This document shows positions 27,617-39,910 of a stretch of DNA of 64,000 nt, one piece after another. The position numbers and the translations under genes are program-made. Location of the stretch: contig NZ_JROH01000010.1 of the NCBI RefSeq assembly GCF_000786205.1, positions 62,001-126,000 on the forward strand, in the 5' to 3' direction. How positions within the stretch are numbered: position 1 is the stretch's first letter; every line of letters starts with the position of its first letter. The notes under the pieces are model-generated. The model made no database searches, had not been told where the DNA came from, and saw only the letters and a program-made list of their open reading frames with translations. The DNA comes from Sphingomonas sp. 37zxx (GTDB lineage: Bacteria > Pseudomonadota > Alphaproteobacteria > Sphingomonadales > Sphingomonadaceae).

Positions 27617-28668
27617 ACGCACCGCATCCGTATTCAAGGAGAGCCGTCATTCCGGCTCCGCTGAATCCCGCCTTTGCGGCTTTCCGTAAACCCGGACTTC
27701 CGATTCTGCTGGTTTCCGCCATTGCGCTTTCCGCCTGCGCCACCAACAAGCCGCCGCAGATCAGCTATGACGATCCGCAGCCGGCCGTTCTGCAGACCGA
27801 TCCGCCTGCGCCTGTACAGATCGTGGAACTGCCGAGGCCGTTGCCTCTGCCCGGGCAGTTGAAGCCGGTGGAACCGTCCACCCAAACCCCGGAAGCGCGC
27901 GATCCTGCCGTGCGGGTCAACCAGGCCAACGCCGCCGCGCGGGTCCAGCCGGTGCGCGACGGCTTCATCAACGCCGTTCAGGTCTATCCCTTCACGCAGG
28001 GCGCGCTCTATCAGGTCTATACGGCGCCGGGGCAGATCACCGATATCGCCCTTCAGCCGGGCGAGCTGCTTGTCGGCTCCGGCCCGGTCGCCGCCGGCGA
28101 CACGGTGCGCTGGATCATCGGCGATACCGAGAGCGGGGCGGGAGCCACTCGGCAGATCCACATCCTGGTGAAACCCACGCGGGCGGACCTCACCACCAAT
28201 CTCGTCATCAACACCGACCGCCGCACCTATCACATGGAGCTGCGCTCGACGGCCTCCACCTACATGGCGTCCGTGTCCTGGCAGTATCCGCAGGACCAGC
28301 TCATCGCGCTGCGTCGCCAGAACGCCGCCGCGCAAGCCGCAGCTCCGATCGCGAGCGGCGTCGATCTTTCCGCGTTGAACTTCCGTTATGCGATCGAGGG
28401 CGACAACCCGCCATGGCGTCCGCTGCGCGCCTTCGACGACGGGCGGCAGGTCTTCATCGGGTTTCCGCGCGGCATCGGCCAGGGCGAGATGCCGCCGCTG
28501 TTCGTGATCGGACCGGAAGGCAGCACCTCAGAACTGGTGAACTACCGGGTGCGCGGCAACCACATCGTCGTCGACCGGCTCTTTGCCGCCGCCGAACTTC
28601 GCTTCGGCTCGGGTGATCGCCAGCAGCGCGTTCGCATCGTCCGCACCGATGGGAGGCCGGCGTCGTGA
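27613..28668 (+). CDS. trbG: TrbG, VirB9-like outer-membrane core protein
   Basis: This 351-residue protein has a signal sequence with a lipobox-like LSAC (AIALSACATNK), a Pro-rich linker (to about 110), then the CagX/VirB9 fold (VQVYPFTQGALYQVYTAPGQ, ILVKPTRADLTTNLVINTDRRTYH). With TrbI it makes the periplasm-spanning core complex. The lipobox would let it also act as the VirB7-like lipoprotein. The stop overlaps the GTG of trbI. Confidence 0.93.
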   Translation: MNAPHPYSRRAVIPAPLNPAFAAFRKPGLPILLVSAIALSACATNKPPQISYDDPQPAVLQTDPPAPVQIVELPRPLPLPGQLKPVEPSTQTPEARDPAVRVNQANAAARVQPVRDGFINAVQVYPFTQGALYQVYTAPGQITDIALQPGELLVGSGPVAAGDTVRWIIGDTESGAGATRQIHILVKPTRADLTTNLVINTDRRTYHMELRSTASTYMASVSWQYPQDQLIALRRQNAAAQAAAPIASGVDLSALNFRYAIEGDNPPWRPLRAFDDGRQVFIGFPRGIGQGEMPPLFVIGPEGSTSELVNYRVRGNHIVVDRLFAAAELRFGSGDRQQRVRIVRTDGRPAS

Positions 28669-29873
28669 GCGACGAACAGAATGAAGACGAAAGGCCGCTG
28701 ACCGGGAGCGGGTCCAGCGGCGGAAACGAGGCCCCGATGCGGCTCCGGGCCGAGGCCCCGCGCGTCACCCGCCTGTCGCGTAAGGTGCTGGCCGGCCTCG
28801 GCGTCATCGCCGGCGTCGGGGTTGGCGGCGCGCTGATCTTCGCTCTGCAGGGACGGCACGATAACGCACCCACCGAGCTGTTCAGCACGGAGAACCGCAC
28901 CACGGCCGACGGCCTGCAGGGGCTTCCGCGTGACTATGCCGGCGTTCCCCGGCTTGGTCCCCCGCTGCCGGGCGATCTCGGCCGACCGATCGTCAGCGCG
29001 CAGGACCGCGGCCAGCCGGTTCCCGCCGCCGGACCACAGCCCGTTCCTGGTGTCAGCGCCGAAGAACAGCGGCGGCTTCAGGAGATCGAGGCGGCCAGGG
29101 TCAGCCGGCTGTTCGCCAGCACCGAGACGCGGACGAGCCCATCGGCCCCAGCCACAACCCCTGCTGCCACGCCGGCCGCCATTCCCAACCTCGGGAGCCT
29201 CGGCCTGGCGCCGCAGCCAGCGACGCCGACCGCCCAGGATCGCCAGCTCGCTTTCATCAACGCTCCGGTCGATCGCCGCACGGTCGCTCCCGATCGGATC
29301 GCCGCGCCGCCTTCGCCCTATGTCGTGCAGGCGGGTGCCGTGATCCCGGCCGCTCTCATCACCGGCATCCGCTCCGACCTGCCAGGCCAGATCACCGCGC
29401 AGGTGACCGAAAACGTCTATGACAGCCCCACCGGACGTCTCCTTCTTATCCCGCAGGGAACGCGACTTGTCGGCCAGTACGATAACGGCGTCGGCTTCGG
29501 TCAACGGAGGGTGTTGCTGGTCTGGAACCGCCTCATCCTGCCGAACGGCAAATCCATCGTCCTCGAGCGCCAGCCAGGCGCGGACTCCGAAGGCTATGCC
29601 GGACTTGAAGACGGCGTCGACTATCATTTGTGGGATCTCGCCAAGGCGGCCGCGCTCTCGACCCTGCTCGGCGTCGGCGCGGAGCTGGCCACCGACGACA
29701 GCGACCGCTTGGTCAGCGCCATCCGCGACGGAGCCCAGGACACGATCAACGATGCTGGTCAGCAGATTGTTCGCCGCCAGCTTTCCATCCAGCCGACGCT
29801 TACCATCCGGCCAGGCTTTCCCGTCCGCGTGATCGTCACCCGCGATCTCGTGCTCGAACCCTATGGAGGTTGA
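28665..29873 (+). CDS. trbI: TrbI, VirB10-like core protein
   Basis: This 402-residue protein starts at GTG 28665. A short cytoplasmic part and one membrane helix (VLAGLGVIAGVGVGGALIF, about 45-63) precede a Pro/Ala-rich periplasmic region and a C-terminal TrbI/VirB10 barrel domain (YVVQAGAVIPAALITGIRSD, GRLLLIPQGTRLVGQYDNGV, RLILPNGKSIVLERQPGADS). It spans both membranes and transmits ATPase energy to the outer pore. Confidence 0.94.
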   Translation: MSDEQNEDERPLTGSGSSGGNEAPMRLRAEAPRVTRLSRKVLAGLGVIAGVGVGGALIFALQGRHDNAPTELFSTENRTTADGLQGLPRDYAGVPRLGPPLPGDLGRPIVSAQDRGQPVPAAGPQPVPGVSAEEQRRLQEIEAARVSRLFASTETRTSPSAPATTPAATPAAIPNLGSLGLAPQPATPTAQDRQLAFINAPVDRRTVAPDRIAAPPSPYVVQAGAVIPAALITGIRSDLPGQITAQVTENVYDSPTGRLLLIPQGTRLVGQYDNGVGFGQRRVLLVWNRLILPNGKSIVLERQPGADSEGYAGLEDGVDYHLWDLAKAAALSTLLGVGAELATDDSDRLVSAIRDGAQDTINDAGQQIVRRQLSIQPTLTIRPGFPVRVIVTRDLVLEPYGG

Positions 29874-30991: not shown

Positions 30992-31393
30992 TTCAAGGGG
31001 CGCCGCCAGTGATCCGGCCTCCTTCTTGTCGGCCCACGATCAGTTCAGCCGTTGTCTCCTGATGGCGGGAACAAAATGCCCGTGAGAGCCTCAAAGTGTA
31101 TGTGCCGAATCTGTGGCCATTTCGGGATGATCTATCCTCGCCGGCCGGCGAACCGTCGCGGCTATGCGAATAAGACGTATTTGCGATAAGAGAGTTCCAA
31201 CGATCGAAAAATATTCTCTCCATAGAGCGTCGCCATACCGGCGGACCGCTCAGGGTCGTCGGCTTTCCAGCCCGGCCTCGGCCAGCGCCAGCCCTTGCCC
31301 AGCGGCGACAAACCTTGCGACCAGTCCGAACATCCAGATCATGGTGGTGACCGTTGGAGCCATCAACAAGAACGAGGTCAACAACCTTTACAA
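30992..31393. other. Degenerate stretch upstream of the LysR gene
   Basis: No intact gene is seen. On the minus strand a short hydrophobic frame, MAPTVTTMIWMFGLVARFV followed by AAGQGLALAEAGLE and a stop at 31250-31252, resembles the tail of a membrane protein cut off by the IS481 relic. The assignment is weak. The first part presumably holds the lysR promoter. Confidence 0.35.
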
Positions 31394-31496
31394 GGACCGC
31401 CTCTGTCGTCGTGGCGCTCCCGTGAAGAACCTGGCCCATAGTGCCTCCTTCCACTCCTGCGAAAAGACTGCACCATCAAAGCCCGGGATCAAACAT
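31394..31496 (-). mobile_element. IS481-family element relic (one terminus)
   Basis: About 100 bp match the right end of the intact element at 36265-36365. They include the transposase start MGQVLHGSATTTEAV on the minus strand and the terminal inverted repeat ending GGGATCAAACAT. The rest of that element is missing. It has the same orientation as the intact copy, so the two bracket the P450/peroxidase cargo. Confidence 0.8.
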
Positions 31497-32061
31497 GCAC
31501 GACTTCTTCAAGCGCGGCGGCGTGACGCGCAAAAAAAGACGGCCCACGCCGCCGAGCAGGACCGGCCGGACGTAGCGCGCCGGCGACACGCCTGGTTCGA
31601 CGGCCAGCCGGACCTCGATCCCGAACGCCTCGTCTTCATCGACGAAAGCGGCATGTCCACCAAGATGGCCCGCCGCTACGGCCGCGCGGCCAGAGGCGAG
31701 CGCTGCCGGGCGCCCGTTCCGCACGGGCACTGGAAGACGACGACGTTCGTCGGTGGCCTCACGCTCGGCGGCATCGTCGCACCGATGACCATCGACGGCG
31801 CGATGACCGGCGCCGCCTTCCTCGCCGGAGCCTGTCCCCGCGAAGGCGGGGATCGAGCAGGTCCTGGTCCCGACCCTCAGCCCCGGCGACGTCGTCGTCC
31901 TCGACAATCTGCCGGCCCACAAGCCGGCCGCCATCCGCGAGGCCATCGAGGCCGCAGGGGCCGTCGTGCTCTTCCTGCCGCCATACAGCCCCGACTTCAA
32001 CCCGATCGAGCTGGCCTTCTCGAAGATGAAGGCCCTCCTCAGGAAGGCGGCCGCCCGCACA
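31497..32061 (+). pseudogene. IS630-family transposase remnant
   Basis: The readable pieces are HDFFKRGGVTRKK, then AAEQDRPDVARRRHAWFDGQ, LVFIDESGMSTKMARRYGR, GHWKTTTFVGGLTLGGIVAP, and after a frame change [20 protein letters not shown] and [20 protein letters not shown]. These carry the DDE residues Asp (FIDES), Asp (LDNLPAH) and Glu (NPIE). The first frame change is at an A7 run (31531-31537), a slippery sequence of the kind some IS630 elements use for -1 frameshifting. The second is caused by a 25-bp palindromic insertion (31827-31851). The N-terminus is missing and the C-terminus is cut by an IS5 fragment. Confidence 0.8.
31835..31852. repeat. Palindromic repeat inserted in the IS630 remnant
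   Basis: TCCCCGC-GAAG-GCGGGGA is a perfect 7-bp inverted repeat. It is the core of a 25-bp block (31827-31851) that has no counterpart in the transposase and shifts the frame. Similar CCCCGCGAAGGCGGGG cores are common dispersed repeats in sphingomonad genomes. Confidence 0.6.
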
Positions 32062-32221
32062 GCCCACTCGCGGTCGGTCAGATCACTTGGAAACCGCAGG
32101 CGGTCACGGTTATGCTCAGCACGAGCGATATCGGTCCAGGTCATTGGAAACCCCATTTGATTCAGCAACAAACGGGAATCACAACCTGCTGATATCGCTC
32201 AACTACTTTTCAATCGGGCTC
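32062..32221 (-). mobile_element. IS5-family element relic (5' end)
   Basis: On the minus strand, [18 protein letters not shown] followed by [10 protein letters not shown] is the N-terminus of an IS5-type transposase. It stops abruptly at 32062, where the IS630 remnant begins. The outer side ends with GAGCCCGATTG (complement of 32211-32221), consistent with a terminal repeat. Its end lies about 80 bp upstream of the P450 gene and could contribute to that gene's promoter. Confidence 0.7.
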
Positions 32222-32303
32222 TGAGTGCGCAACAATAGTCTTGCGTCGCGACTTGGCGAGGCTCAATGTGATTGGAACTGATCCGAGGTCTGGAAGGCGA
32301 CCC

Positions 32304-33563
32304 ATGTCCTTTCTTGCCGAGTACGATGCGCTGCCTGCCGACGACCCACGCGCCCGCGCCGCCTTGGTAGTGCGGTGGCTGCGCACCGACTGGCGCGGCC
32401 TCTTCACCGAGCTTCGCTCCACCCGCCCGGTCTTTCCCAACCCTGTCTTCACCATGGTCACGCGGGCGACCGACGTGCTCGATGTACTCGCGCAGCCGAG
32501 CCTCTACACCGTCGCGGCCAATGTTCCGGCGATGGACCCAGCGGTCGGACCCTTCATGCTCGCGCGCGACGAAACGGCGCTAAACTGGCACGAGAAGGGC
32601 GTGATGCGGGCAGTGCTGCGGATTGACGATCTGCCGCGGTTACACGGCATCGCAGCAGAGACGACGGCCGCGGAACTCGGTGGGGCAGCAGGCACGATCG
32701 ACCTTGTCGGTCGCATCGCCCGACTGGTACCGCTGCGGGTGGTGCAGCGCGGCTTCGGCTTCACCGCCCCGGACACCGCCATGCTGCGCTGGTCCTTTGC
32801 CACGCAGCACGCGATGTTTCGAAATCTCGGGGCCGACCCCGCGGTGCTAGCCGCTGGGATCGCCGCGGGGCAGCAGATGCAGGCCTGGCTCTGGCCCTTC
32901 CTCGCGCGACACTGGGCGGCGCCGCCCGATGACGACACACCGGTCGCACGGCTATTGCGCTTGTCGCGTCACGCCGACCTGGCGATGCCGCCCGACCGGG
33001 TGCTGAGCAACATCTGCGGCCTACTGGTCGGCGCCATCGAGACGACCGCCCAGGCCATCGCCCAGGCAACCGAGCAGATCCTGCTGCGGCCGGAGGTGCG
33101 CGAGGCGGCGATCACCGCCGCCGGCGATGCCGATCCGGGGCGCTTCGACGCCATTGTCTTCGAGGCGCTGCGCTTCAATCCGATCACCGGGTTGCAACTG
33201 CGCGTTGCCGCGCGCGATGCATTGATCGGCGCCGGCACGCACTACGCGACGCCCGTTGCTGCCGGCACGCCGGTTGCCGCATGCACCGCCTCGGCGATGT
33301 TCGATCCCGGCCTTTTCCCCGCGCCTGAGCACTTCGACGCCACCCGCCCCGCCAGCGCCTATCTCCACTTCGGCATCGGACACCATGAGTGCCTCGGTAA
33401 GCACGTCGGGCTGGTCATCATCCCTGAGGCGGTGCGACAGGTCATGCGCCTGCCGGGCATCCGCCTCGCCGAGGGCGCGGCGGGGCGGATCGACTTCGCG
33501 GGCGGGCCCTTCCCCGAGCATCTTGGCCTCGTGTGGGACCCACCCGCCGCAGCCGCAGCCTGA
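32304..33563 (+). CDS. Cytochrome P450
   Basis: The ATG at 32304 has GGAAGG about 8 nt upstream; the product is 419 residues and soluble, with no membrane anchor. P450 motifs are complete: I-helix VGAIETT (242-248) with the acid-alcohol pair, ExxR as EALR (287-290), and the haem loop FGIGHHECLG (356-365) with Cys363 as the axial ligand. The intact acid-alcohol pair suggests it can act as a monooxygenase, although hydroperoxide isomerisation is possible. No ferredoxin or reductase gene is adjacent. It is followed after 19 nt by the cyclooxygenase-like gene, so the two form an operon and may act in sequence on the same lipid. Confidence 0.92.
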   Translation: MSFLAEYDALPADDPRARAALVVRWLRTDWRGLFTELRSTRPVFPNPVFTMVTRATDVLDVLAQPSLYTVAANVPAMDPAVGPFMLARDETALNWHEKGVMRAVLRIDDLPRLHGIAAETTAAELGGAAGTIDLVGRIARLVPLRVVQRGFGFTAPDTAMLRWSFATQHAMFRNLGADPAVLAAGIAAGQQMQAWLWPFLARHWAAPPDDDTPVARLLRLSRHADLAMPPDRVLSNICGLLVGAIETTAQAIAQATEQILLRPEVREAAITAAGDADPGRFDAIVFEALRFNPITGLQLRVAARDALIGAGTHYATPVAAGTPVAACTASAMFDPGLFPAPEHFDATRPASAYLHFGIGHHECLGKHVGLVIIPEAVRQVMRLPGIRLAEGAAGRIDFAGGPFPEHLGLVWDPPAAAAA

Positions 33564-33582
33564 GCACGAGGGACACCCCACC

Positions 33583-35217
33583 ATGCTGGAAGCCCCCGCC
33601 CGCACGTCCGGCCGCGACACCAGCGCCGACGGCCTGTGGATTCGACTCCGCGCCTGGGCCCTGCAGCATATGGCGCCGTTGTGGCGCGCCATCGCTGCGG
33701 TGCCGCCGCTGCAGCGTCTGCTGAACCGGGCCCTGATCAACGCCGCCGCCACGGTTGGCCCGCCGCGGCCGCACCCCTTCGCCACCGTCTCCGACTACAC
33801 CTCCTGGCGCTCGCTGACCGACCGGAGCTTCTACGCACGGCATCTTCCAACCGCTGATCCGCCGCCCGACATTCCCACGGCAGCGCAAGCGGTCGCGCTG
33901 TTCCGCCGTGCCGAAGGCGGGATGCGGGAATGTCCCAAGTCCACGCTACTGTTCCCCGTCTTCGCGCAGTACCTCACCGACGGCTTCCTCCGCACTGACA
34001 TGGCGGACCGTCAGCGCACCACCAGCAACCACGACATCGATCTCTCGCCCCTCTACGGCCGGACCTGGGCGCAGACCCAGGTACTGCGGACGCGGGACGA
34101 GAGCCCCGGCCGACGCGGTCGACTCGACAGTCAGGAACTGGCCGGCGAGGAGTACCCGCCCTTCCTGTTCGAGGCCGATGGGAAGACGCTCCGCGGCCGC
34201 TACCTAGACGCTGAAGGCCGGCCGATCCTCGACCCGCCGCTCGGCCTCAAGCCGGGCGACGACGGTGCCGCCAGGCAGATTTTTGCCGTCGGCGGCGATC
34301 GCGCCAATGCGACACCGCTGGTCGCCATGCTGAACACGCTGCTGCTGCGCGAGCACAACCGCCTCGCTGCCGGCATCGAGGCTGAGAACCAATGCTGGGA
34401 CGACGAGCGCATCTTCCAGACCGCTCGCAACTGCCTAATCGTGATCTACATCCGAATCGTTATCGAGGAGTACATCAATCACATCTCCTCGGCGATCCCG
34501 CGTCTCGCCGCCGATCCCTCCGCCGCCTGGACGGCGTCCTGGAACCGGCCGAATTGGATGACTGTGGAGTTCGCCCTGCTCTACCGCTGGCACTCCATGA
34601 TCCCTGAAAGCATCGGCTGGGAGGGGCGGGCCGTACCGGCGGATGCGATGCTGCTCGACAACACCTGGCTTACGCGGGTGGGAATGGCGCGGGCTCTAGT
34701 GTGGGCCGCAGAACAGAGGGTCGGCGCGCTCGGCCTGTTCAACACCCCACAGTTCCTTTTGGACGTCGAGGCACGGGCGATCGCGCAGGGACAGGCGAAC
34801 CGCGTCGCCCGTTACAACGATTACCGCGCCGCCATGGGAATGCCGCGGGTCCGGCGTTTCGAGCAGATGACCGCCGATCCCGAGCGCCTGCGGGCGCTCC
34901 GGGAGATCTATGGCTCGCCTGACCGGCTGGACTTCTACGTCGGGCTTTTTGCGGAGGATGTGAGCTCGAACACGCCCATGCCACCACTGATCGGTCGGAT
35001 GGTGGCGCTGGACGCTTTCACCCAGGCGCTGACCAACCCGTTGATGTCGCGCCAGGTCTTCAACGTACGCACCTTCGGCGCCTGGGGGTTCGCTGAGGTC
35101 GGCCAGCCCCAGAGTATCGCGGCATTGCTGCAGCGGCAGCGGCAGCGGACGACGCTCCCGCCCGGCGCGTCTGTCGAGGCAATCCGCATGACTCGGCCGG
35201 ATTGGGTGCGGGTGTAG
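33583..35217 (+). CDS. Cyclooxygenase-like haem peroxidase (animal peroxidase superfamily)
   Basis: The ATG at 33583 gives 544 residues with no signal peptide. The chain tracks prostaglandin H synthase along its length: SFYARHLP (82-89), HDIDLSPLYGRTW (150-162), GEEYPPFLFE (188-197), RQIFAVGGDR (231-240), LREHNRL (255-261), EEYINHISS (295-303) and EFALLYRWHSMIPES (329-343). In the last, Tyr334 and His337 correspond to the radical Tyr385 and proximal His388 of COX-1. Gln129 matches Gln203, but the distal His207 position is Asp133 (FAQYLTD). It probably oxygenates a polyunsaturated or other long-chain fatty acid and hands the hydroperoxide to the P450. Animal-type peroxidases with other substrates are the alternative. 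Confidence 0.88.
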   Translation: MLEAPARTSGRDTSADGLWIRLRAWALQHMAPLWRAIAAVPPLQRLLNRALINAAATVGPPRPHPFATVSDYTSWRSLTDRSFYARHLPTADPPPDIPTAAQAVALFRRAEGGMRECPKSTLLFPVFAQYLTDGFLRTDMADRQRTTSNHDIDLSPLYGRTWAQTQVLRTRDESPGRRGRLDSQELAGEEYPPFLFEADGKTLRGRYLDAEGRPILDPPLGLKPGDDGAARQIFAVGGDRANATPLVAMLNTLLLREHNRLAAGIEAENQCWDDERIFQTARNCLIVIYIRIVIEEYINHISSAIPRLAADPSAAWTASWNRPNWMTVEFALLYRWHSMIPESIGWEGRAVPADAMLLDNTWLTRVGMARALVWAAEQRVGALGLFNTPQFLLDVEARAIAQGQANRVARYNDYRAAMGMPRVRRFEQMTADPERLRALREIYGSPDRLDFYVGLFAEDVSSNTPMPPLIGRMVALDAFTQALTNPLMSRQVFNVRTFGAWGFAEVGQPQSIAALLQRQRQRTTLPPGASVEAIRMTRPDWVRV

Positions 35218-35281
35218 CGTGAGATAGGCTTGCGTGACGTCATGGCGTCAGTGCAGCAGGCTTACGACGATGGAGATTCGG

Positions 35282-35313
35282 CCGCCGCGCGCTGCTCCGC
35301 GAGAGCGCGGCGG
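35282..35313 (+). terminator. Hairpin after the P450/peroxidase operon
   Basis: CCGCCGCGC (35282-35290) and GCGCGGCGG (35305-35313) form a perfect 9-bp stem with a 14-nt loop, 65 nt after the peroxidase stop. The IS481 copy inserted just beyond it, so any T-tract has been displaced. Confidence 0.5.
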
Positions 35314-35315
35314 TG

Positions 35316-36308
35316 CTAGATGTTTAGTCCCGGCATCTGGTGGAGCGGGTTGGCTCTGAACCGGTGCGGTTCGGCAGCCCAACGTTTGCAGATGAACTCG
35401 TAGGGTGTGAGGCCCTTCAGCGTCTTGAGCCGGCGGCCGTAATTGTAGGCTGCGATGAAGTCGGTGAGGTGCCGCTCGAGCTGGGCGTGATCGTCATAGT
35501 GGTAGCGCCGGACGGTCGCGTCCTTGATCGTCCGGTTCATTCTCTCCACCTGCCCATTCGTCCAGGGGTGCGCGGGCTTGGTCAGACGATGCTCGATGTC
35601 GAGATCGGCGCAGGCCGCCTCGAAGGAATGACAGCGGAAGAGCACGCCCTCGGCCCGCATCGCCTTGATGTCCTCTGGTGTCCAGCCGTCGCCTGTTGGC
35701 TCGGTGAAGTGCGTGCCGTTGTCCGTCAGCACGATGTTGACCTTGTAGGGAACCGCCTCGGCGAGGTGGCGCAGGAAGTCGCCGGCGACGCGACGGGTCG
35801 CCTTCTTGTGCAGCTCGACGAAGGCGAACTTTGAGGTGCGATCGATGGCCACCAGCAGATAGAGCCTGCCTTCGGCTGTCTGCACTTCGGCGATGTCGAT
35901 GTGGAAGAAGCCGATCGGGTAGGACTTGAACTTCTTTTTGTTGGCCTTCTCTCCGTCGACATCAGGCAACCGGCCGATGCCATGTCGCTGCAGGCAGCGA
36001 TGCAGGGACGAGCGCGTCAGATGCGGGATGGTTGCCTGCAGAGCGTAGAGGCAGTCGTCGAGCGGCAGAAGCGTGTGCCGCCGGAAAGCGACGACCACGG
36101 CCTCTTCCTCGACCGTCAGCACGGTCGAACGTGGATCCTTCGGCCCCGTCCGCTGGTCGGCGACCGAGCTCCGCTTCCTCCACTTCGCAACCGTCTTCGG
36201 GTTGATCCCGTGCCGCTTGGCCAGCGTCCTCAGGCTCTCTTGACTATGCTGTATCGCTCGACGGACTGCCTCTGTCGTAGTGGCGCTCCCGTGAAGAATC
36301 TGGCCCAT
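35316..36308 (-). CDS. IS481-family transposase
   Basis: This 330-residue protein has an N-terminal HTH (RAIQHSQESLRTLAKRHGINPKTVAKWRKR) and an rve integrase core: Asp in FFHIDIAEVQTAEGRLYLLVAIDRTSKFAF, Asp in VLTDNGTHF, and Glu in HPWTNGQVERMNRTIKDA. The TAG stop codon is supplied by the CTAG target duplication, outside the element proper. The copy looks intact and may be active. A terminus of a sister copy is at 31394-31496. Confidence 0.93.
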   Translation of the reverse strand: MGQILHGSATTTEAVRRAIQHSQESLRTLAKRHGINPKTVAKWRKRSSVADQRTGPKDPRSTVLTVEEEAVVVAFRRHTLLPLDDCLYALQATIPHLTRSSLHRCLQRHGIGRLPDVDGEKANKKKFKSYPIGFFHIDIAEVQTAEGRLYLLVAIDRTSKFAFVELHKKATRRVAGDFLRHLAEAVPYKVNIVLTDNGTHFTEPTGDGWTPEDIKAMRAEGVLFRCHSFEAACADLDIEHRLTKPAHPWTNGQVERMNRTIKDATVRRYHYDDHAQLERHLTDFIAAYNYGRRLKTLKGLTPYEFICKRWAAEPHRFRANPLHQMPGLNI

Positions 36309-36365
36309 AGCGCATCCCTCGCTGCCTGCGAAAACAATGCACCATCAAAACCTGGGATCAAACAT
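35320..36365 (-). mobile_element. Intact IS481-family insertion sequence with CTAG target duplication
   Basis: The imperfect terminal repeats begin ATGTTTAGTCCCGG (left) and, read inward from the right, ATGTTTGATCCCAGG. CTAG flanks both ends (35316-35319 and 36366-36369), matching the NCTAGN target preference known for IS481. The length is 1046 bp and it carries one transposase gene. Confidence 0.85.
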
Positions 36366-36554
36366 CTAGCCACCCACGCTCACGGGCTGTCGCCTCGATC
36401 AAGCAGCCTTGCGGTAGAGGCCGAGCCGACCTCTAAACCGTCCTATCTCTACGCCATGGCCCTCTACTAGCCTACGAAGTGATTTAAGGCCTTCCGTCTT
36501 TCGAGAACTATTGCCTTCAATCCTCTTCTGCTTTGAACGCTGAGGAGAATCGAG

Positions 36555-36851
36555 ATGCCTCGCCCGGGTGATACACCGATCAAACGCACTATCCGGAGGC
36601 ACCAATTGCGTGAGATCGTGCCGCTGGCAGAAAGTACGATCTACGAAATGGAACAGCGCGGCGAGTTTCCGCGGCGCTTCGCCCTTTCACCCAGATGCGT
36701 GGTTTGGGACTTGGCCGAAGTCGAAGCCTGGTTGGCATCGCGTCGAGCGACGCCCATACCCCGCGCACAACATCCTGACGTCAAGCAACGCCGCACCCGG
36801 CCCGTTAGAGGGCGGGATCCGGCGCCAAGAGGGGCATCGCCGACGGAATGA
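36555..36851 (+). CDS. AlpA-like excisionase/regulatory protein
   Basis: This 98-residue protein has GAGGAG ahead of the ATG. The core, IRRHQLREIVPLAESTIYEMEQRGEFPRRFALSPRCVVWDLAEVEAWLASRR (about 12-64), is an AlpA/HTH_17 domain; the tail is basic and disordered. AlpA-type proteins act as excision directionality factors or activators of P4-type integrases. Its last 47 nt overlap the 3' end of the convergent integrase gene, so the two transcripts are antisense to each other there. Confidence 0.88.
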   Translation: MPRPGDTPIKRTIRRHQLREIVPLAESTIYEMEQRGEFPRRFALSPRCVVWDLAEVEAWLASRRATPIPRAQHPDVKQRRTRPVRGRDPAPRGASPTE

Positions 36852-38353: not shown

Positions 38354-39910
38354 TCATTCCCATTCGATCGTGCCCGGCGGCTTCGACGTATAGTCATAGG
38401 TCACCCGGTTGATGCCGCGAACCTCGTTGATGATCCGTGTCGCGACGCGCGGCAGGAAGTCGCCGGGGAAGCTGAAGGCTTCGGCGGTCATCCCATCGGT
38501 CGAGGTTACCGCGCGCAATGCCAGCACATTGTCATAGGTGCGCCCGTCGCCCATCACCCCGACGCTGCGTACCGGCAGCAGCACCGCAAACGCCTGCCAA
38601 ATCGCATCGTACAGCCCAGCGTTACGGATTTCCTCCAGATACACCGCATCGGCCTTGCGCAGGATGTCGCAGCGTTCCTTGGTGACTTCGCCCGGAATTC
38701 GGATCGCCAGGCCCGGCCCCGGGAACGGATGGCGGCCGACGAAGATGTCGGGCAGCCCCAGTTCGCGGCCCAAGGCGCGCACCTCATCCTTGAACAATTC
38801 GCGAAGCGGCTCGACCAGCTTCATGTTCATCCGCGCCGGCAGGCCGCCGACATTGTGGTGGCTCTTGATCGTCACCGAAGGCCCGCCGGTGAAGCTGACG
38901 CTTTCGATCACGTCGGGATAGAGCGTGCCCTGCGCCAGGAATTCGGCACCGCCGACCTTCTTGGCCTCGGCCTCGAACACGTCGATGAAGGTCTTGCCGA
39001 TGAACTTGCGCTTCGCCTCGGGATCGGTAACTCCCGCCAGCCCGCTCAGGAACAGCGTCTCGGCGTTCACATGCACCAGCGGGATATTGTAATGGTTGCG
39101 GAACAGGCTGACGACCTGATCGGCCTCGCTGGCGCGCATCAGCCCGTGATCGACGAACACGCAGGTGAGCTGCTCGCCAATCGCCTCGTGGATCAGCACC
39201 GCCGCCACGGCTGAGTCGACGCCGCCCGACAGGCCGCAAATGACTCGCCCGCTGCCGACCTGCTCGCGGATTTCGGCGATCTTGGCGTCGCGGAATTCGG
39301 CCATCGTCCAGTCACCCGCCAGGCCACAGACATGGCGGGCAAAATTGGCGATCAGCTTGCCGCCATCGGGGGTGTGAACCACCTCGGGGTGGAACTGCAT
39401 CGCGTAATAGCGGCGCGAATCATCGGCGATCACGGCGTAAGGTGCGCCCGCGCTCGCGGCGACGGGGCGAAAGCCCGGTGCCAGCTGCGTCACCTTGTCA
39501 CCATGGCTCATCCACACCTGGTGCGTTTCACCCTCTGCCCACATGCCGTCGAACAACGCGCAACTATCAGCGATCTCGATAAAGGCGCGCCCGAACTCGC
39601 CCGATTCGCCCAGCGTTACCGTGCCGCCAAGCTGCTCCATCATCACCTGCTGGCCATAGCAGATGCCCAGCACCGGCAGCCCGCTGTCGAAGATCGCCTG
39701 CGGCACGCGCGGGCTTTCGGCGTCGAGCACCGACGCCGGGCTGCCCGACAGAATGACACCCGCCGGCTGCATCCGCGCAAAGGCTTCAGCGGCAGTGGTG
39801 AACGGTGCGATCTCGGAATACACCCCCGCTTCGCGCACGCGGCGGGCAATGAGCTGGGTGACCTGGCTACCGAAGTCGACGATCAGGATGGATTGCGAAG
39901 GCGTCTGCAT
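38354..39910 (-). CDS. guaA: GMP synthase (glutamine-hydrolysing)
   Basis: This 518-residue protein converts XMP to GMP. The N-terminal glutamine amidotransferase has the nucleophile Cys in GICYGQQ and His/Glu in [10 protein letters not shown]. The ATP-pyrophosphatase P-loop is [12 protein letters not shown]. The dimerisation domain ends [17 protein letters not shown], so the reading frame is intact after ICE integration. The conserved 3' end is a well-known integration target for genomic islands. It is a core gene on the minus strand, transcribed towards the ICE. Confidence 0.98.

Follow-up and report, generated by a model that had tools for sequence, protein, structure and literature searches.

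A mobile-element gene pair of a cytochrome P450 and a cyclooxygenase-like enzyme in Sphingomonas sp. 37zxx that probably makes oxidised fatty acids

The gene pair and its mobile setting

The window analysed here, a 64,000-nt stretch of one contig of Sphingomonas sp. 37zxx, carries a gene for a 419-residue cytochrome P450 followed, after a gap of 19 nt, by a gene for a 544-residue cyclooxygenase (COX)-like protein, both as intact open reading frames (Table 1). A sequence-only reading of this DNA had described a P450 with all its motifs next to a protein tracking prostaglandin H synthase (PGHS), and the open reading frames, the Pfam profiles and a match to PGHS-1 all agree with that description. 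A promoter scan of positions 31800-35600 returned no sigma-70-like site, and the two genes are probably carried on one message.

The pair has IS sequences on both sides and shares its surroundings with trb-type T4SS genes and an integrase beside guaA. Repeats resembling the end of guaA lie on the same contig (at C21:30509 and C21:46087, each differing at 2 of 17 positions, with one more such match on contig C103; the control gave 0). Judged by its integrase and T4SS genes, the region is probably an integrative and conjugative element, so that the mobile setting proposed earlier holds in outline.

Table 1. Features of the gene pair and the surrounding element (window coordinates)
Feature	Position	Strand	Remarks
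trbI of trb conjugation cluster, left of cargo	28665..29873	+	
Segment resembling the terminus of the IS481 copy	31394..31496		86% identity over 103 nt to 36263-36365
Transposase remnant, left cargo flank	31626..31823	+	DDE_3 match; residues 155-220 of ORF 31164-32192
Shine-Dalgarno-like GGAAGG ahead of P450 start	32292..32297	+	sequence
Cytochrome P450, 419 aa, first of pair	32304..33563	+	EALR, GAIETT, FGIGHHECLG (Cys363)
Shine-Dalgarno-like GAGGGA ahead of COX-like start	33568..33573	+	sequence
COX-like (10S-dioxygenase-like) predicted heme dioxygenase, 544 aa	33583..35217	+	Tyr334, His337, distal Asp133
IS481-family insertion sequence, right cargo flank	35315..36370	-	transposase 35316-36308
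AlpA-type regulator	36555..36851	+	
Tyrosine integrase adjoining guaA	36805..38061	-	
guaA 3' end, candidate attachment site	38354..38373		

Family and active-site residues of the two proteins

The COX-like protein matches the An_peroxidase profile (PF03098) with 138.4 bits against a cut-off of 25, and its best solved relative by phmmer is PGHS-1 (E 5.8e-47, residues 28-500). A fold search with its AlphaFold model (pLDDT 86.3, pTM 0.90) finds PGHS at Z 37.0-38.4, alpha-dioxygenase at 27.1-27.6 and myeloperoxidase at up to 26.0. Profile and predicted fold together place it in the peroxidase-cyclooxygenase superfamily. Alpha-dioxygenase identity was ruled out, PGHS being nearer both in fold and in sequence (phmmer E for alpha-dioxygenase, 1.6e-10). 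The model superposes on PGHS from residue 83 onward, a part that we take to include the membrane-binding helices, which makes the earlier description of “two soluble enzymes” doubtful for this member of the pair.

The proposed radical tyrosine (Tyr334) and proximal histidine (His337) are where they had been said to be and do not vary across the 22 aligned proteins; the radical tyrosine is retained in every COX-like row read. Alignment with COX shows Y348, Y385 and H388 retained, Arg in place of V291, Ala at the positions of Arg120, Tyr355 and Ser530, and Asp (D133) at that of the distal His207. The three Ala and the Asp rule out identity with prostaglandin H synthase (COX-1/2). The distal Asp, Tyr348/Tyr385/His388 and Ala at 530 are the residues of the bacterial 10S-dioxygenase type, to which the protein is assigned by alignment. 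In the portion of PMC13049297 covered, the linoleate 10S-dioxygenase (10S-DOX) of Nostoc punctiforme is given Asp at 207, retained Y348, Y385 and H388, and Ala at 530, and Arg at 291 is described as conserved in DOXs. Compared by these published residues, the two proteins share a length of about 540 residues, the COX fold, the distal Asp, Tyr348/Tyr385/His388 and Ala530, but differ at position 504, which is Tyr in COX and the window protein and Phe in the Nostoc enzyme, and at 526, which is Val here and Ile there.

The upstream protein matches the p450 profile (PF00067) with 38.4 bits against a cut-off of 22.8 and has the ExxR pair (E287/R290), GAIETT in the I-helix and the FGxGxHxCxG heme loop; by motif and profile it is a cytochrome P450. 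Its predicted model was too poor for use (pLDDT 60.4).

Conservation of the pair and exchange of partners

A P450 gene directly precedes the COX gene in the window and in eight other genomes or plasmids (L013, L014, L015, L036, L037, L038, L083/L094 and L084/L096). In 5 of the 6 relatives whose junction was measured, the P450 stop and a potential COX start overlap by 4 nt. The pair sits on plasmids in three legume symbionts, R. etli, R. gallicum and S. medicae. A 1022-aa open frame in L014 was ruled out as a P450-COX fusion, the COX lying in a different frame. The window pair and L036 cluster together in both the P450 and the COX trees, L013/L014/L015/L037/L038 are grouped in both, and the trees agree wherever both are supported. 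A survey of adjacency had been set beforehand as a test able to refute the idea of a joint pathway, and the idea came through it. In the family of G695 (200 genomes), the P450 occurs at 50% identity or more in 3 genomes, each of them among the 8 that have the COX (Fisher 4.3e-5, or 1.1e-3 once the centre genome is removed), with the 50% line set after the hits were seen.

The association is not universal. The COXs of L011 and L012, which have no P450 alongside, are interleaved among those of paired loci, COX relatives from Acaryochloris plasmids (36.5-37.3% identity) fall outside the P450-paired clade, and for 27 of the 43 COX relatives in the tree, flanks of 1.5-6 kb contain no P450 and no catalase-related gene. 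No significant P450 or catalase-related match lies alongside the L012 COX, and a search of that genome at E 1e-20 gave no match like the window P450. The COX trees leave out L001 and L050 (the window itself), L006, L007 and L008 (treated as duplicates of L027, L029 and L023), L010 (distant), L031, L032 and L034 (cut or frame-broken), and L060, L061, L062 and L092, and the second also PGHS-1. The P450 tree leaves out L001, L002 and L050 (the window again), L051/L066 (P450 same as L048), L055, L056 and L082 (genomes same as L067, L068 and L063), L094/L096 (same as L083/L084), and L058 and L059 (partial).

The partners themselves are exchanged. Members of the P450 family lie beside, or are fused to, a COX-like, RoxA-like di-heme or DyP enzyme, three unrelated peroxidase-type proteins, at 18 of 31 loci, some of them near copies of one another (L074/L075, L076/L078, L085-L087). 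The same partner types were found beside 0 of 30 control P450s (Fisher 1.6e-7). Among the control loci 17 had a partial Pfam match and short flanks; widening these to about 3 kb still gave 0/30, and the 13 fully matched controls alone give Fisher 2e-4. DyP and P450 are in one case fused in a single 1007-codon frame. The closest relative of the COX-like protein (Ensifer L011, 62%) has catalase-related and di-heme genes as neighbours and no P450; the gap upstream of it shows no significant match to a P450 remnant and contains a second catalase-related unit. Catalase-related neighbours of COX relatives recur in L039, L040, L043, L044 and L062.

The I-helix, read in all 41 rows of the P450 tree, differs among these partnerships. 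A Glu-Thr acid-alcohol pair is present in 11/11 COX-associated and 10/10 di-heme-paired P450s, in just 1 of 9 paired with DyP, and in 0/7 paired or fused with an unknown domain. The acid thus follows partner type within one P450 family.

These exchanges may, more tentatively, reflect a modular set of oxylipin-making enzymes carried by Alphaproteobacteria and some other Pseudomonadota: a single P450 family, repeatedly paired or fused with non-homologous heme enzymes that supply it with fatty-acid hydroperoxides (COX-like, RoxA-like di-heme, DyP-like), and a COX-like enzyme that trades its P450 for catalase-related proteins. The window pair would be the mobile P450/COX version, and such pairs could be a source of DOX-P450 fusions like the fungal one.

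A fatty-acid oxygenation module and its alternatives

What could such a pair do? The reading that we favour, at a probability of roughly 0.57, is a two-gene module for fatty-acid oxygenation, in which a hydroperoxide produced from a fatty acid by the dioxygenase is the substrate of the P450. The COX-like enzyme would bind an unsaturated C18 fatty acid, and the Tyr334 radical, formed at the His337-ligated heme, would take an allylic hydrogen. Addition of O2 would give a hydroperoxide, by analogy with Nostoc 10S-DOX at C10 of oleate or linoleate. The distal His is needed for peroxidase activity; because Asp replaces it, the enzyme should be a weak peroxidase, and the hydroperoxide would therefore leave unreduced. 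Received at the Cys363 heme of the P450, it could become a diol, an epoxy alcohol, an allene oxide or cleavage products. Of the dioxygenase-P450 oxylipin pathway proposed earlier, a dioxygenase with a hydroperoxide-consuming heme partner survives as the best reading; the retained Glu-Thr pair speaks against a pure isomerase role for the P450.

Could the P450 be an ordinary monooxygenase instead? The COX-like protein would again be a fatty-acid dioxygenase, and the P450 would use O2 and NAD(P)H, with a ferredoxin system encoded elsewhere, to hydroxylate either that fatty acid itself or what the dioxygenase makes from it. P450s adjoining a COX do look O2-competent from their sequences, because all 11 retain the Glu-Thr pair of O2-activating P450s, and conventional bacterial monooxygenases, CYP142 and macrolide hydroxylases for example, make up most of the best 60 solved relatives listed for the window P450. 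However, relatives in the same family that have lost the acid (GGPPQPP, GAIPT) still keep a peroxidase-type neighbour, and the gene tables for the flanks of L036, L037 and L045-L048, although incomplete, show no ferredoxin or reductase. Redox partners are often unlinked to P450 genes. On this evidence we consider an ordinary monooxygenase unlikely, if still a serious contender.

It is improbable that both proteins simply handle peroxide, the COX-like enzyme and its di-heme, DyP or catalase-related substitutes being peroxidases that shield or supply a peroxygenase-type P450, with no oxylipin made. The swapped partners do come from peroxidase or catalase superfamilies, and GFADG is retained in the one DyP partner whose whole sequence was read, which may thus be a genuine peroxidase. 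Yet the COX-like protein lacks the distal His while its radical Tyr is kept in every row read, and fatty-acid dioxygenase activity is reported, in the portions of PMC13049297 and PMC4496055 covered, for both the related Nostoc 10S-DOX and the di-heme FadCcp of Pseudomonas. Least credible by far is that insertion sequences, which do flank the window pair, joined unrelated genes: the locus survey (eight further genomes or plasmids with this gene order, and agreeing trees) and the 0 of 30 control P450s rule out chance adjacency, and in the two plasmids checked, those of R. etli and S. medicae, the genes listed next to the pair include no transposase.

The favoured module, dioxygenase followed by P450, has several counterparts. 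Both animals and fungi have COX-like dioxygenases with P450 partners. In animals, thromboxane or prostacyclin synthase likewise adds a P450 step after a COX fold, although the window protein has none of Arg120, Tyr355, Ser530 or the distal His of animal COX, and to our knowledge such bacteria are not expected to contain arachidonate. Compared by their descriptions, the fungal Ppo/linoleate diol synthases also combine a COX-like dioxygenase with a P450, but as a single fused polypeptide with the DOX first, whereas the window has two proteins with the P450 first, a reversal that had been pointed out before. Within the P450, the HEC heme loop is as reported for fungal 9-AOS in the part of the literature covered, whereas SRS4 reads GAIETTAQ here and has Asn/Gln amides (GMxxNQxQ) in fungal LDS/EAS members, AOS members varying (PMC13049297 Table 3, as far as covered).

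Searches of the open-licence literature yielded no description of this P450-COX-like pair, and among the bacterial enzymes characterised in the literature covered, Nostoc 10S-DOX comes nearest to COX. It acts with a catalase-related 10S-hydroperoxide lyase encoded by a separate gene (PMC13049297, portion covered), where the window gene is closely coupled to that of a P450, within an integrative element; going by that portion, it is a closer precedent than the fungal fusion. The oleate diol synthase system of Pseudomonas aeruginosa (PA2077/PA2078) is likewise a two-gene bacterial fatty-acid dioxygenase and diol synthase, but both of its enzymes are di-heme proteins of the cytochrome c peroxidase kind, without COX fold or P450 (PMC4496055, portion covered). 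RoxA-like di-heme kin replace the COX-like partner beside the P450 family of the window.

A conserved, mobile bacterial pair provides small proteins in which to study how a P450 chooses between hydroperoxide conversion and O2 activation, and a way to ask about the origin of the fused fungal enzymes. As a guess, its oxylipins could be signals in the legume symbionts that carry it.

The P450 and COX-like gene pair

The P450 and cyclooxygenase (COX)-like genes form the closely spaced tandem that the sequence-only reading had described, and both are intact (table). Each start is preceded by a Shine-Dalgarno-like stretch, and GC by codon position (0.74/0.53/0.83 for the P450, 0.68/0.51/0.84 for the COX-like gene) resembles that of neighbouring coding genes.

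Features of the gene pair and its surroundings in the window
Feature	Position	Strand	Remark
trb-type T4SS			left of pair; trbI last
IS481-like end and DDE transposase remnant			left of pair
P450, 419 residues	32304-33563	+	intact reading frame
COX-like heme dioxygenase, 544 residues	33583-35217	+	intact reading frame, 19 nt after P450
IS481-type element	35315-36370		right of pair
AlpA and tyrosine integrase adjoining guaA			right of pair

By sequence, the nearest solved relatives of the COX-like protein are animal prostaglandin H synthases (PGHS; E 5.8e-47). Its AlphaFold model (pLDDT 86.3, pTM 0.90), for which the window's protein was combined with 21 from related loci (22 in all), superposes on PGHS across 472-478 residues at Z 37.0-38.4, against about 25-30 for peroxidases and 27.1-27.6 for alpha-dioxygenases among the matches listed; Foldseek ranks them in the same order, with PGHS ahead of both. 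Because the structural alignment starts at PGHS residue 83, and so covers helices that form part of the membrane-binding region in PGHS, helices of that type appear to be present in the model, and the earlier description of the enzyme as soluble is doubtful.

The proposed radical Tyr334 and proximal His337 are there in the window sequence. Relative to ovine PGHS-1 (PGHS numbering), Tyr348, Tyr385 and His388 are unchanged, and the substitutions are Arg120 to Ala, His207 to Asp, Val291 to Arg, Tyr355 to Ala, Gly526 to Val and Ser530 to Ala. Every one of the 42 rows that cover the distal position (duplicates counted) has Asp at it, as do 22/22 rows of an alignment of COX-like proteins. These residues rule out a prostaglandin synthase. 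According to Oliw 2026 (PMC13049297), the 542-residue Nostoc 10S-dioxygenase has F143tdsF where COX has F205thqF, keeps Tyr348, Tyr385 and His388 and carries Ala at 530, and Arg is conserved at the Val291 position of DOXs. Compared by this description, the window protein matches the published Nostoc residues except at 504 (Tyr rather than Phe) and 526 (Val rather than Ile).

Conservation of the pair and exchange of partners

A P450 directly followed by a COX-like gene recurs in Neorhizobium (L013), an Erythrobacter MAG (L014) and Azorhizobium (L015), on plasmids of Rhizobium etli (L036), Sinorhizobium medicae (L037) and R. gallicum (L038), and in two further genomes (L083/L094 and L084/L096); the survey proposed from the sequence thus finds the adjacency conserved, in the same order. 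In five of the six named relatives measured, a candidate COX start (TTG in one case) and the P450 stop share 4 nt, although the S. medicae record puts its start further upstream; the R. etli gap is 20 nt.

The phylogenies suggested at the same stage agree, for seven pairs, at the splits supported in both trees. All 11 COX-associated P450s in the 41-row P450 tree, nine adjacent to a COX and two in genomes with a COX elsewhere, form one clade (98/95). In the 43-row COX tree the window's protein groups with those of R. etli L036 and Ensifer L011 (100/99), and these three fall within a nine-member clade (99/92; 93/82 in the first COX tree). COX rows without a P450 (L011, L012) are interleaved among the paired ones. 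The COX proteins of L083/L094 and L084/L096 lie on another branch with those of Paracoccus (100/96), so the pairing with a P450 must either have formed on two occasions or have been lost in the lineages between. Nine of the 43 rows have an adjacent P450, two an unlinked one in the genome and five a catalase-related neighbour; most COX relatives are unpaired, since 27 have neither partner within flanks of 1.5-6 kb.

The closest COX relative, that of Ensifer (L011, 62% identity), has no P450 beside it; its neighbours are a tandem catalase-related protein and a di-heme protein of the RoxA-like kind. Paracoccus yeei plasmids (L039, L040) carry these three genes too, although their catalase-related unit is single, and catalase-related neighbours also occur in Methylobacterium currus (L043) and Ruegeria (L044, L062). 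The Pfam catalase match exceeds the cut-off in Ensifer (36 bits) and M. currus (28.8), falls below it in P. yeei (17) and is absent in Ruegeria, where the assignment was made by similarity to the other catalase-related proteins. These neighbours matter because the reported partner of the Nostoc 10S-dioxygenase (PMC13049297) is a 10S-hydroperoxide lyase that is itself catalase-related.

The Ensifer catalase-related unit is duplicated within one 664-aa protein (L011:3832-5826), and a Tle1-like phospholipase frame after the COX-like gene (L011:7753-9354) could release the fatty-acid substrate. A Phyllobacterium plasmid encodes a 949-aa protein that joins a catalase-related domain with an animal-type heme peroxidase (L061:2558-5404), and a patatin-like phospholipase is the third gene upstream. 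Two COX-like genes on draft or metagenome contigs (L032, L034) are split over two frames, which may reflect faulty assembly or gene decay.

Co-occurrence was followed in 200 genomes from the family, probably GTDB Acetobacteraceae, of Roseomonas sp. CECT 9278 (G695), the centre of the sample and picked for having a COX. A P450 at >=50% identity occurs in three and a COX relative in eight, which include all three (Fisher 4.3e-5, or 1.1e-3 without G695, with the 50% line set after the hits were known). In six further genomes the P450s reach 36-44% and no COX passes the threshold applied. P450 and COX are unlinked in G695 and in a second genome, G687, and 5 of 25 COX-bearing genomes from the related-locus search have such a P450.

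Partners of the P450 family and the predicted reaction

P450 relatives at about 36-44% identity adjoin RoxA-like di-heme proteins (Methylobacterium, Bradyrhizobium and others), the type to which the Pseudomonas fatty-acid 10S-dioxygenase belongs (PMC4496055); those at about 26-35% adjoin DyP-type peroxidases (Skermanella and others). One genome (G479) has a DyP-P450 fusion in a single 1007-codon open frame (L138:710-3733, minus strand), with DyP_N, DyP_C and P450 matches each above cut-off in the 996-aa stretch scanned; the peroxidase part comes first, an order like that of fungal DOX-P450 fusions. Six family P450s (L074, L075, L077, L079, L080, L081) continue at the C-terminus into a domain of unknown function, in open frames of about 1400-1550 aa; in Skermanella this domain family has its own gene, second upstream of the P450 (L049:1919-3430).

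Partners were counted at 31 distinct loci found by P450 similarity alone, excluding the window's own and including near copies (L074/L075, L076/L078, L085-L087), so that not all are independent. A COX-like, di-heme or DyP gene is fused or lies in the 1.5-kb flanks at 18 (on the opposite strand at L090), the unknown domain is found instead at eight, and neither at five. Wider stretches add a di-heme gene one gene further upstream of L069 (as L102) and a DyP-like gene about 1.5 kb downstream of L055 (as L101); L088, L089 and L082 have no COX-like, di-heme or DyP partner even there. Control P450 loci outside the family gave 0/30, also when about 3 kb of flank was taken for the 17 controls with a partial match (Fisher 1.6e-7; 2e-4 if the control set is restricted to the 13 with a full match).

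Conservation, partner swapping and these counts favour a model in which a hydroperoxide-making dioxygenase would feed its product to a heme partner. The GFADG motif is intact in the one DyP partner whose sequence was read completely, so not every partner need be a dioxygenase. Could the P450 be an oxygen-activating hydroxylase instead? The main counter-evidence to the hydroperoxide-fed model is its own I-helix acid-alcohol pair (Glu/Asp then Thr), kept in 11/11 COX-associated and 10/10 di-heme-paired P450s of the 41-row tree, in one of nine DyP-paired (L053) and in none of the seven that carry the unknown domain; these seven have Pro at the acid position, as most DyP-paired ones do. The members that seem least apt to activate O2 are thus not those beside a COX. 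At the Thr position, fungal LDS have Asn and some AOS Thr (PMC13049297 Table 3). The sequence is compatible with either hydroperoxide conversion or hydroxylation with O2. Across the tree, the I-helix acid tracks partner type.

Pairing of COX-like dioxygenases with heme partners is already known; for a bacterial version with a P450, no published description was found in the open-licence literature searched.

Mobile setting and origin

The mobile-element setting assigned to the pair holds in outline, with a trb-type T4SS, an integrase beside guaA and IS sequences on both sides; guaA-end-like sequences are candidate repeats. The guaA 3' end recurs with 2 mismatches in 17 at two places outside the window on its contig (C21:30509-30525 and C21:46087-46103); these copies are identical over 19 nt, on the same strand and 15.6 kb apart. 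The search gave one more 2-mismatch match, on contig C103, and a reversed-pattern control gave none. These features fit an integrative conjugative element whose length would be about 54 or 70 kb; a second island may be present as well.

Other genomes of the family to which the window belongs, including one of the same genus, have COX-like genes lacking a P450 or catalase-related neighbour in the flanks examined. The window's COX groups with Rhizobiaceae proteins in the COX tree, not with those of its own family, which suggests horizontal arrival. The two guaA-end-like copies on C21 suggest that guaA has taken up two islands, or a composite element, in tandem.
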